Assembly: GCA_014874455.1 (NCBI GenBank) | Contig: JADBJL010000082.1 | Span: 1 to 50,198 of the forward strand | Origin: Thermomicrobiaceae bacterium | GTDB taxonomy: Bacteria > Chloroflexota > Chloroflexia > Thermomicrobiales > Thermomicrobiaceae | Direction of reading: 5' to 3' | Length of the DNA stretch: 50,198 bases | Shown here: positions 26,647 through 29,921 of the stretch, in pieces | How positions within the stretch are numbered: the first letter of the stretch is position 1 | How the letters are laid out: every line of letters starts with the position of its first letter | Position numbers and translations under genes: made by a program | The notes under the pieces: model-generated | Database searches by the model: none | Told to the model about the DNA's origin: nothing | What the model saw: the letters and a program-made list of their open reading frames with translations, nothing else

Positions 26647-26931
26647 CGGCTGGGCGAACCGGCATTGTCACGCCAGTGATGGCTGGCCAGTGGAGACGGT
26701 TGCCGTGGACTCCGACCTAACTGGAGTGTGGACAGTGCCTGAGCCGACCAGAAGCGCTCGTTGACGCTGTGTGTCTCCGACCTTCCTTCCGATGGGGCGC
26801 CTCGGAGCCGCCCGCGATCGCTTGCCCTCGTGTACGATGCGAGATAGATCAGGACGCAGGTACCATTGCGTCCGGCATGGGTAGCCGGTATCTTCCTTCC
26901 AGCATCCGGGACAGGCGAAGGGGACAGCGCA

Positions 26932-28014
26932 ATGCCTCTGCCCAAACCACAGACTCGCGAGTTCACCGAGCGACTCCGCCAGATCGTCGGAGGCTGCCGA
27001 ACCGAGCTTGCCGAGACCGGTCGCTCGCTGCAGGAGATCGAGCTGCTGCTCAACCAGACCAATACCGAGGTGGAGCGCTTGCACCAGCGGGAGATCCAGG
27101 TGAGCAACCGCTTGCGGGATATCGATGCCAACCTGGAGTCGTACCCGCGTGCCGAGATCCGCGACGCGTACCGCGCAGCGCAGGAGGTCACCCTGCGCCT
27201 GTTCATGATGCGGAGCCAGGCGGAGCAACTCCAGGAGCGACAGGAGAGCCTGCGGCGCTACCAGGAGCGGCTGCGCGAGCTGCTGGAGCTGGCTGAGGCA
27301 CAGCTCGAGCACGAGACGGAACGCGCCCGCGCGGGGGAAGGGCGCACTCGAGCGCTCCACCGGCCAACTGCTGAGACGCCGAGTATCCCGCTGGAGGAAG
27401 TGATTCTGGCCGAAGAGGCGGAGCGAGGTCGGATCGGCCGGCAGCTCGTCGATGGGCCAGCGCAGGCGCTGAGTAACGTTCTTTTGGAACTCGAGATCTG
27501 CGAGCAGCTCCTGGCCCGGCGTCCGGAGCAACTCGGGGAGGGGCTGAACAGCCTGCGCGCTACGGCCTCGCGAGCCTTGCTCGACGTGCGGCGGATGCTC
27601 TACGAGTTGCGCCCTGCCGTGCTGACCGAGATCGGCGTGACGGCGACGCTGCGTCGCTACCTGAGCGAACTGGCCCGGATCTACGGGATCCAGGTCGACA
27701 TCACGGGGCCGGACAGCGATGAGTTGCCGCAGGCGGCCCAACTCGCGCTGTACCGCATGCTGCAAGAGCTGGCCGGGGCAGCCGCTTCCGACGAACGTGT
27801 GCGGCGGGTGAGCGTCGACCTCCGCTACGAGCCAGCACAGGTGGTGGCACGGGTGGAGGCACAGGGTTCGGGTGTTGGGCAGCGGTCGCGTCTGGTGGAC
27901 TTGAGCCTGGACAGCGGCTTCCAGACCCGACTGGAGCGGCTCGGTGCGAGCCTGTCCGTCGAGGGAGCCGGCGACGACGTGAGCCGGGCCACCGTGCTCA
28001 TTCCCCTTGCTTGA
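26932..28014 (+). CDS. DegS-like sensor protein lacking kinase catalytic residues (pseudo-histidine kinase)
   Basis: A 360-residue soluble protein built like the DegS sensor kinases: an N-terminal coiled coil (residues 8-135, with FTERLRQIVGGCRTELAETG and NRLRDIDANLESYPRAEIRDAY), then a dimerisation region EEAERGRIGRQLVDGPAQAL and an ATPase-like domain. The phosphoacceptor position, normally His in R-x-L/I-H-DGPAQ, is Val173. The N-box reads MLQELAGAAASDE without Asn, and the G1 position that should be D-x-G reads VEAQGSGVG. It therefore should neither bind ATP normally nor phosphorylate itself. The frame is intact and of full length, so a regulatory role is more likely than decay. The ATG at 26932 follows GAAGGGG. 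It is tail-to-tail with a complete NarL/NarX-type pair. Confidence 0.8.
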   Translation: MPLPKPQTREFTERLRQIVGGCRTELAETGRSLQEIELLLNQTNTEVERLHQREIQVSNRLRDIDANLESYPRAEIRDAYRAAQEVTLRLFMMRSQAEQLQERQESLRRYQERLRELLELAEAQLEHETERARAGEGRTRALHRPTAETPSIPLEEVILAEEAERGRIGRQLVDGPAQALSNVLLELEICEQLLARRPEQLGEGLNSLRATASRALLDVRRMLYELRPAVLTEIGVTATLRRYLSELARIYGIQVDITGPDSDELPQAAQLALYRMLQELAGAAASDERVRRVSVDLRYEPAQVVARVEAQGSGVGQRSRLVDLSLDSGFQTRLERLGASLSVEGAGDDVSRATVLIPLA

Positions 28015-28057
28015 ACCAGAGGCGGTCATTTCAGTGTCAGGGCAAGCCCGGCGGGCA

Positions 28058-28077: not shown

Positions 28078-28749
28078 TCACTCGGTCGCCGGGTCGAGCA
28101 GGCCGGCGCGCAGGGCGAAGCGTACCAGCTCCGAGCGTCGGCTGAAGCCGAGCTTCTGCATCACCCGGTGCCGGTAGGTCTCGACCGTCTTGGGTGACAG
28201 GTAGAGCTGGTCGGCGATCTCCTGGGCTGTGTAGCCAGCCGCAGTCAGCCTGAGTACCTCGCGCTCGCGCTCAGACAGGAGCTGGGCTGGATCCTGTACC
28301 TCGCCGGCCTGGGCGCGATCGAGATACCCCTGCAAGAGCATCCGCGCCGCCTCCGGGTCGACGAAAACCTCGCCCCGGGCCACAGTGTAGATCGCCTCGA
28401 TCAGGTCGGTGTGCAGGCTCGACTTGCGCACGTAGCCCGAGCCACCGGCCTGGAGCACCGGCAGGAGATAGCGCTCCTCGGCGTGCACGGTCAGGATCAG
28501 GACGCGAGTGGGTAACCCCAGCGCAGCGATAGCGTGGACTGCTTCGAGTCCCCCGCCTGGCATGGAGATGTCGAGGATCGCGACGTCGGGTCGCTCGCGC
28601 GTCACGAGCTCGACGGCCTCATCGGCGCTCCCCGCCTCACCGACGACGGCAATGTCAGGCTGGGCCTCGAGCAGCGCGCGTAGGCCGGCCCGGACAATCG
28701 GGTGATCGTCAGCCAGCACGACGCGAATTGGCCGGCAGGCGTTGCTCAC
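28078..28749 (-). CDS. NarL/FixJ-family response regulator
   Basis: A 223-residue regulator. The receiver domain has VVLADDHPIVRAGL with acidic residues 14 and 15, the phosphorylated Asp60 in VAILDISMPG, the switch Thr in LILTVHAEE and a conserved lysine in GYVRKSS. A LuxR-type helix-turn-helix occupies about 157-215 (LSEREREVLRLTAAGYTAQEIADQL, then LSPKTVETYRHRVMQKLG). It begins with GTG at 28749 overlapping the stop of the kinase gene (GTGA), so the pair is co-translated. DNA targets unknown. Confidence 0.94.
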   Translation of the reverse strand: MSNACRPIRVVLADDHPIVRAGLRALLEAQPDIAVVGEAGSADEAVELVTRERPDVAILDISMPGGGLEAVHAIAALGLPTRVLILTVHAEERYLLPVLQAGGSGYVRKSSLHTDLIEAIYTVARGEVFVDPEAARMLLQGYLDRAQAGEVQDPAQLLSEREREVLRLTAAGYTAQEIADQLYLSPKTVETYRHRVMQKLGFSRRSELVRFALRAGLLDPATE

Positions 28750-29864
28750 CGGTGTACCTCCGCGATGCCTGCCGCTCCAGAAGCAGTTCTCACCGCCGAC
28801 CGATCTCTCTGGTTGCCGGCCGGCTGGGGCTGGAGCGGTGCCGTGACCCGGACAAGCGTCCCCTGGCCGGGAGCCGAGGAAAGGATCAGCTCTGCGCCGA
28901 CGAGTTGGGCCCGCTCGCGCATGCTGAACAGCCCCAGCCCGCCGTGGCGGGACGACAGTTGGCGGAGATCGAAGCCCCGGCCGTCGTCCCGGATCTCCAG
29001 CGTGACCTGGCCGCCGTCGAAGGAAAGCTGGAGCTGGGCCTGGCCGGCCTGGGCGTGCTTGGCGACGTTGTTCAGTGCCTCCTGGGCGATCCGGTAGAGC
29101 GCGAGCTGCAGATCAGGGTCGAGCCGCTGACGGTGGCCGCGGATGACCACGGAGACGGGCAGGCCGAAGCGCTGGCGCTGCTGGGCTGCCAGCCCTTCGA
29201 GCGCGGCCGGAAGGCCGAGGTCGTCGAGGGCGGGCGGGCGCAGCTCGTGCGCGATCGCCCGGATCGACTCCAGCGTGGTCGCGGTCTGGCCGATCATCTC
29301 GGCCAGTGCCTGTTTGTCGGCCACCCCCCCGCGATCTTCGAGCGTCTTCAGCCAGAGGAGCTGGGCGGTCAAGCTCTGAGCCGTCTCATCGTGCAGCTCG
29401 CGAGCGATGCGGCGTCGTTCCTCCTCCTGCGCGGTCAGGACGCGCAGCGAGAGCTCGCGCAGCCGGTTCTGGTAAGCGACGACGGTATCGAGCATAGCGT
29501 TGAAGGTCGCGGTCAGCGCGTCGAGGTCAGGGTCGCTGAAGGCCACGCTCGGCGCGCGCACCTGGAAGTTGCCCTGCCGTACCTGGTCGGCGGTCTCCTC
29601 GAGCGCGGCGATCGGCCGGAAGGCGGCGCGCAGCACGATCCAGTTGATGACGACGCTCAGCAGCGTGCCGGTAGCGGCGAACAGGGCGACGAGCTCCGGC
29701 AGGTGCTCGGTGTTGCCGGTGCTGAGCAGCGTGAGCGTGGTGCCGACGACAGCGCCCCCGACCACGATCGCCGAGTTGGCGATCAGCACCTTGTAGAAGA
29801 TGGGGAGGCCGAGCAAGCGGCGGCTCCAGGTGAAGACCGTGGTTCGGGGTCGCGAACTCGTCAT
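28746..29864 (-). CDS. NarX-type membrane sensor histidine kinase
   Basis: A 372-residue kinase with two membrane segments (about 25-48 and 57-80), a short periplasm-facing loop, a HAMP domain (80-130), and a HisKA_3 dimerisation domain with the phosphoacceptor His158 in RRIARELHDETAQSL. The ATPase domain is complete: N-box ALYRIAQEALNNVAKHAQ, IRDDGRGFD, GLGLFSMRERAQLVG and GQGTLV. The start at 29864 has CGGAG eight bases before it; a GTG three codons earlier is possible. It follows ffh by 57 nt on the same strand and may be read from the ftsY-ffh promoter. The signal is unknown; the extracellular loop is too short for a separate sensory domain. Confidence 0.92.
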   Translation of the reverse strand: MTSSRPRTTVFTWSRRLLGLPIFYKVLIANSAIVVGGAVVGTTLTLLSTGNTEHLPELVALFAATGTLLSVVINWIVLRAAFRPIAALEETADQVRQGNFQVRAPSVAFSDPDLDALTATFNAMLDTVVAYQNRLRELSLRVLTAQEEERRRIARELHDETAQSLTAQLLWLKTLEDRGGVADKQALAEMIGQTATTLESIRAIAHELRPPALDDLGLPAALEGLAAQQRQRFGLPVSVVIRGHRQRLDPDLQLALYRIAQEALNNVAKHAQAGQAQLQLSFDGGQVTLEIRDDGRGFDLRQLSSRHGGLGLFSMRERAQLVGAELILSSAPGQGTLVRVTAPLQPQPAGNQRDRSAVRTASGAAGIAEVHR

Positions 29865-29921
29865 CAGGCGCACTCCGGGCGTCCTCGTCCGCCGAGCCGA
29901 GGAGGAGCGGCTCGGTCAACC

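Follow-up and report, generated by a model that had tools for sequence, protein, structure and literature searches.

What can a DegS-like protein still do once it has lost every catalytic motif of a histidine kinase? The question is raised by a pseudo-histidine kinase gene at positions 26932..28014 (plus strand) of the window, by which we mean the whole 50,198-nucleotide stretch of Thermomicrobiaceae DNA that was analysed. We characterized this gene by its open reading frame, Pfam domains, orthologues and dN/dS values. The frame runs from an ATG at 26932 to a stop codon ending at 28014 (360 codons plus stop) and encodes a product of 360 amino acids. A Shine-Dalgarno-like GAAGGGG is located about 8 nucleotides 5' of the ATG (26917..26923, plus strand), which confirms the intact DegS-like frame with a ribosome-binding site that had been proposed in the initial annotation. 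Start codon and ribosome-binding site are conserved in the orthologues of three genomes of the same genus, where a similar upstream motif is found. A second frame of 453 codons, open on the minus strand (window positions 26668-28029) and antisense to the entire pseudokinase gene, most probably results from codon usage at high G+C.

The protein begins with a coiled-coil sensor (residues 10-123; 26959..27300, plus strand), the most conserved part of the pseudokinases, which matches the Pfam family DegS (PF05384) with 41.5 bits at a cut-off of 27.6. The DHp dimerisation/phosphoacceptor helices follow (residues 154-234; 27391..27633, plus strand) and correspond to a HisKA_3 domain devoid of its His (49.2 bits, cut-off 24). 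With both matches above their cut-offs, the claim that the coiled-coil sensor and the dimerisation helix are kept holds. The C-terminal part (residues 235-360; 27634..28011, plus strand) is a degenerate GHKL/CA domain. No Pfam match to HATPase_c was found in the pseudokinase, even at E ≤ 1, and an NCBIfam search retrieved general kinase models alone, all of them below threshold. In an AlphaFold2 model (mean pLDDT 84, pTM 0.53), a long coiled coil leads into a DHp of two helices and a domain of GHKL type. The best fold matches of this model in the PDB are DesK structures, the first of which is the H188V mutant, a His-to-Val exchange, and a sequence-profile search also returns DesK as the best PDB match for the DHp-CA region. 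The CA domain of the predicted model on its own matches the ATPase domain of VraS (TM-score by target 0.76). Thus, the predicted DHp-CA fold fits that of the HisKA_3 kinases DesK and VraS, and the CA fold is predicted to persist without its nucleotide-binding motifs.

The loss of these motifs was assessed by alignment with 66 relatives from outside the order Thermomicrobiales, all long enough to be scored. The phosphoacceptor position is occupied by Val173 (27448..27450, plus strand), and all 66 relatives have a His there. Within the N-box region, LYRMLQELAGAAASDERVR (27748..27804, plus strand), the Asn is absent and residue 283 is an Ala; every relative from outside the order that reaches this position has the Asn. 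The G1 region reads VEAQGSGVG where EDDGxGF is expected (27853..27879, plus strand). In this protein, substitutions or deletions affect the segments that correspond to DxGxG and G2, and the deletion spans the G2 box/ATP lid. The class members outside the order that extend into the CA domain retain the N-box Asn and DxGxG as well as the His. The comparison therefore upholds the view that all kinase motifs have been lost: the phosphoacceptor His, the N-box Asn and the G1/G2 motifs of an active HisKA_3 (HPK7) kinase are missing. A kinase fold, lost catalytic functions and a conserved gene are what characterizes a pseudo-histidine kinase, and this protein combines the three.

The dead state is shared by the order. 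All 17 scoreable Thermomicrobiales orthologues are without phosphoacceptor or ATP site, and in a phylogenetic tree a branch supported at 100/100 separates these 17 from the others. Because of its long branches we take the tree as evidence for a single origin only, and not for the internal order; together with the alignment it places the death of the kinase in the ancestor of the order. The orthologue of G041 retains HDGPTQ but neither the N-box nor the G boxes, and it branches between the intact and the remaining dead proteins. Since it combines the His with a missing ATP site and takes an intermediate place in the tree, it suggests that the ATP site was probably lost before the His.

Is the gene then on its way out? 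Searching 80 relatives, we found full-length orthologues with 88-96% identity in three other genomes of the genus; the orthologues from the remaining genera of the family that were found share 46-57% identity, and those from two further families of the order approximately 42%. Pairwise dN/dS over the whole gene, a check that the initial annotation had proposed, is 0.066-0.125 (about 0.07-0.13) with upper bootstrap limits of at most 0.2, indicative of purifying selection. The coiled coil has the lowest value of all domains (0.04-0.07), and DHp and CA together are at about 0.06-0.21. For the dead CA domain, dN/dS is 0.09-0.21 in seven pairs and zero in one pair; because these values are low, even the ATPase-like fold appears to be under selection. 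A decaying gene heading for loss is therefore a very remote prospect. In its favour are a truncated remnant in one genome (G029) and five relatives in which the coiled-coil profile detects no DegS-type gene (G006, G013, G015, G017 and G018). However, all genera of the family which have the gene have it as a full-length intact frame, and decay or frameshifting is rejected by the dN/dS values and by conservation of the dead state throughout the order. The truncated gene (L124, G029:C192:14500-20500) aligns only over its first ~74 residues, has a frame of 182 codons and is possibly a real remnant of loss. The order-wide dead state, its single origin and the strong purifying selection agree with the initial annotation in arguing that the protein encoded at 26932-28014 is, by its sequence record, a conserved pseudokinase and not a decaying gene, which probably has a regulatory job other than phosphorylation.

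Which protein might it regulate? The most obvious candidates are its neighbours, a NarL-type response regulator (28078..28749, minus strand) and a NarX-type kinase (28746..29873, minus strand). The latter has a HATPase_c domain (57.7 bits) and all motifs (HDETAQ, EALNNVAKHA, DDGRGFD and GLGLFSM), and the tail-to-tail arrangement with an intact NarX/NarL-type pair noted at the outset is real and is shared by the window and a sister genome, G003. However, when tested for conservation, the adjacency proved to be confined to these two genomes; neither of the remaining two members of the genus has it, nor does it occur elsewhere. The pair is thus a neighbour only, outside the conserved unit; it was rejected as a partner, and the idea that the pseudokinase serves as its adaptor is left without support. 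The NarL-type protein, which is convergently transcribed and adjoins the gene only in the window genome and G003, does not qualify as a DegU-type cognate regulator either, and no conserved regulator adjoining the DegS-type gene was seen in the other genomes examined. A second DegS-type kinase was likewise rejected as a partner. According to the coiled-coil profile, 86 of the 158 genomes of the class, including the window genome, have exactly one copy of the DegS-type sensor and none has a second; because the sensor is single-copy, no such partner is available, and the proposal that the protein dimerises with a DegS-type kinase or antagonizes it lacks support. That the pseudokinase forms heterodimers with, or antagonizes, a different HisKA_3 kinase, for instance the NarX-type one next to it, is improbable: the genome encodes nine HisKA_3 proteins and the placement in the window is tail-to-tail, yet transcription is convergent, the NarXL adjacency is limited to two genomes, and a second DegS-type sensor is absent from every genome. 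Receiver genes were found near only a few of the intact relatives and no dedicated regulator gene is regularly linked, for which reason we consider the kinase gene an orphan.

A different neighbour is conserved. In 49 of 74 testable genomes, defined as those with at least 1 kb of contig available, a co-directional gene for an Flp pilin (Pfam Flp_Fap) is found within 1.2 kb downstream of the DegS-type gene, its match starting 106-1021 bases downstream on the same strand. Outside the genus of the window, this holds for all 10 testable pseudokinase genomes except for the truncated G029 remnant, and the linkage is likewise seen in G019. Gene order thus points to the Flp pilin gene as the ancestral genomic partner, a link that is not visible within the window itself. 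In families of the order, a divergent glmU-, prs-, hlyC- and birA-like block lies upstream and a dnaJ-like gene downstream, the names being read from the sequences. In the genus of the window, the gene has moved away from the pilin locus; its neighbours in G000 (the window genome) and G003 differ from those in G001 and G002, and the pilin genes of the genus lie apart from the pseudokinase gene. The assembly of the window genome yielded no Flp pilin gene, even when a pilin of the same genus served as query. In G003 the pilin genes are next to dnaJ, their neighbour in the ancestral arrangement, where the contig ends, so that the pilin gene of the window genome may sit in an assembly gap. Nevertheless, both the displaced position and the missing Flp gene argue against a pilus function. 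Flp pilin genes occur in tandem pairs in L043, L044, L045, L047, L048, L049 and L051, with a typical pilin followed ~200-270 bases on by a more divergent one, and as identical or near-identical duplicates in several genomes of the class (L056, L084, L086 and L087). Literature searches for an Flp-linked kinase in Chloroflexota found nothing relevant with the terms used.

The Tad locus of the window genome encodes a CpaF-like T2SSE ATPase, two T2SSF platform proteins and CpaE (L198:11077-12336, contig C27), the N-terminus of which is a full receiver domain (PF00072, 90 bits). The acidic pair, the phosphoacceptor Asp and the Lys of the CpaE receiver are intact in all 30 sequences examined. CpaE/TadZ of the class (L209-L238 and L198) is a motif-intact receiver fused to a MinD-like ATPase, in contrast to published TadZ/CpaE receivers, which are described as atypical (PMC13170226); our literature search for CpaE/TadZ with a working receiver retrieved nothing relevant with the terms used. 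Among the 158 class genomes, 79 have both the kinase-type gene and a receiver-CpaE, 7 and 13 have one of them singly, and 59 have neither (Fisher p ~1e-22). Within the order the respective numbers are 14, 4 and 5, and 38 (p ~1e-6). Both tests ignore phylogeny and incomplete assemblies, and the co-occurrence could merely reflect a shared Tad system and phylogeny. A more specific hint of partnership, albeit from a single event, comes from genus g6. Its CpaE receiver has an Ala/Gly at the conserved Ser switch (L202:4238-5500 and the g6 relatives G008, G011, G014, G016 and G020), which is the case in no other genus among the 30 sequences examined, and its pseudokinases have lost the acidic residue at His+1, again in no other genus, their DHp motif being the most degraded. 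In genus g47 we observed a second, diverged CpaE-like copy, in which one stop codon interrupts the match in G087, G088, G090 and G092.

How could a kinase-dead protein act on a receiver? HisKA_3 proteins do not require the His for phosphatase activity, in which the Gln at His+5 (Gln193 of DesK) positions the catalytic water (PMC5231405; PMC12632262). The pseudokinase has the DxxxQ motif of HisKA_3 phosphatases, with Asp174 at His+1 and Gln178 at His+5 (27463..27465, plus strand), the latter being assigned by alignment and its role taken from PMC5231405. The equivalent of Gln178 is invariant in all 83 scored proteins (17 pseudokinases and 66 others), and the residue at His+1 is acidic in all of them outside g6; within the motif, it is the His position that varies most among the pseudokinases. 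Since the Gln is invariant, the His variable and, for HisKA_3 phosphatases, dispensable, the simplest model is that of a receiver-docking phosphatase. We therefore consider a kinase-dead, soluble DegS-type dimer that would regulate the Flp/Tad pilus. On this view, an orphan kinase of the DegS type, linked to a pilin gene, would have lost first ATP binding and then the phosphoacceptor His in the ancestor of the Thermomicrobiales, and would have retained the coiled-coil sensor, the DHp dimer and a receiver-docking helix with the phosphatase Gln. It would bind the intact N-terminal receiver of CpaE/TadZ, a Tad protein, and, as a phosphatase only, lower the phosphorylation of this receiver, so that the signal perceived by the coiled coil tunes pilus assembly. 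Motif loss, single origin, selection, pilin linkage and co-occurrence with receiver-CpaE can be read from the sequences, whereas the receiver partner and the phosphatase action are what we infer, and a kinase-dead phosphatase of the CpaE/TadZ receiver that controls the Tad pilus is a tentative proposal, held with rather less than even confidence. We are a little more doubtful about its wider form, that the whole order has turned a pilus-linked kinase into a monofunctional, ATP-independent Tad controller that acts on the CpaE/TadZ receiver and not on a transcription factor.

Several observations argue against the phosphatase. some 40 positions are invariant, Gln178 among them, which may thus be kept for structural reasons; genus g6 keeps the Gln even though its receiver seems impaired; His-less proteins are fewer, not more, among HisKA_3 than among HisKA proteins, which speaks against a general phosphatase role (PMC12632262); and DivL, which lacks phosphatase activity, stabilises DivK~P (PMC4211667). 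DivL is also the direct precedent (PMC4211667) for a scaffold which would bind a phosphorylated receiver, either CpaE or another one, without dephosphorylating it and would relay the signal via the coiled coil or a further partner. The retention of the DHp and CA folds in the prediction and selection on all domains, including the CA domain without its nucleotide motifs, are consistent with such a binder. However, mere binding would not need the known phosphatase Gln to be invariant, and a linked partner kinase comparable to CckA is missing. On balance, this is an uncertain reading, yet one nearly as likely as the phosphatase.

A role as a coiled-coil adaptor, in which selection acts mainly on an N-terminal coil for contacting a pilus or cytoskeletal component, with the kinase core as no more than a dimer clamp, is rather unlikely. 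It would account for the coil having the lowest dN/dS and being better conserved in the pseudokinases than in intact kinases (mean entropy 1.09 versus 1.47), and for a core that is less conserved in the pseudokinases, a trend only as the group sizes differ. It would not account for the low dN/dS of DHp and CA, nor for the invariance of E164, R165, Q178, L185 and E188 in the docking helix. In summary, the interpretation given in the initial annotation is partly supported, and the order-wide HisKA_3 pseudokinase status and the Flp/Tad pilin linkage are firm as sequence facts.

Domains of the HisKA_3 type without the His amount to 0.3% in published counts (PMC12632262), and DivL, the pseudo-histidine kinase studied in most depth, does not belong to HisKA_3. 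The Thermomicrobiales provide a HisKA_3 pseudokinase with a traceable single origin and a pilin neighbour; one intermediate still bears the His but has no ATP site, and the orthologues in sister orders appear to be functional. This makes it testable whether kinase death in the HisKA_3 family leaves a phosphatase or a binder, and a Tad pilus ATPase might, via an intact receiver, be a direct target of two-component chemistry. Among the closest counterparts are the pilin-linked DegS-type kinases of the class (e.g. L026, L033 and L035), which are orthologous, single-copy proteins with the same coiled coil and an Flp gene downstream but retain the His, the N-box Asn and DxGxG. Bacillus DegS (PF05384 plus HisKA_3) likewise has a soluble coiled-coil sensor followed by a HisKA_3 DHp with a ...DGPAQ... 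helix; unlike DegS, the pseudokinase lacks the His, N-box and G1/G2 and has the Flp pilin linkage instead of an adjacent DegU-type regulator in the operon. Bacillus subtilis DesK and its H188V mutant (3EHJ), the best PDB matches in fold and sequence for DHp-CA, share the Gln at His+5. However, DesK senses temperature from the membrane and has a working ATP site, and the H188V protein is an engineered variant that still has nucleotide bound in its crystal structure. Caulobacter DivL, too, is without phosphoacceptor His or useful ATP binding and has been kept as a signalling protein, but it has PAS sensors, a Tyr at the His position and DivK as its partner (PMC4211667). Finally, Pseudomonas PprA/PprB (PMC3510237) exert two-component control that is linked to Flp/Tad pili as well, there by means of a working kinase and a cognate transcriptional regulator.
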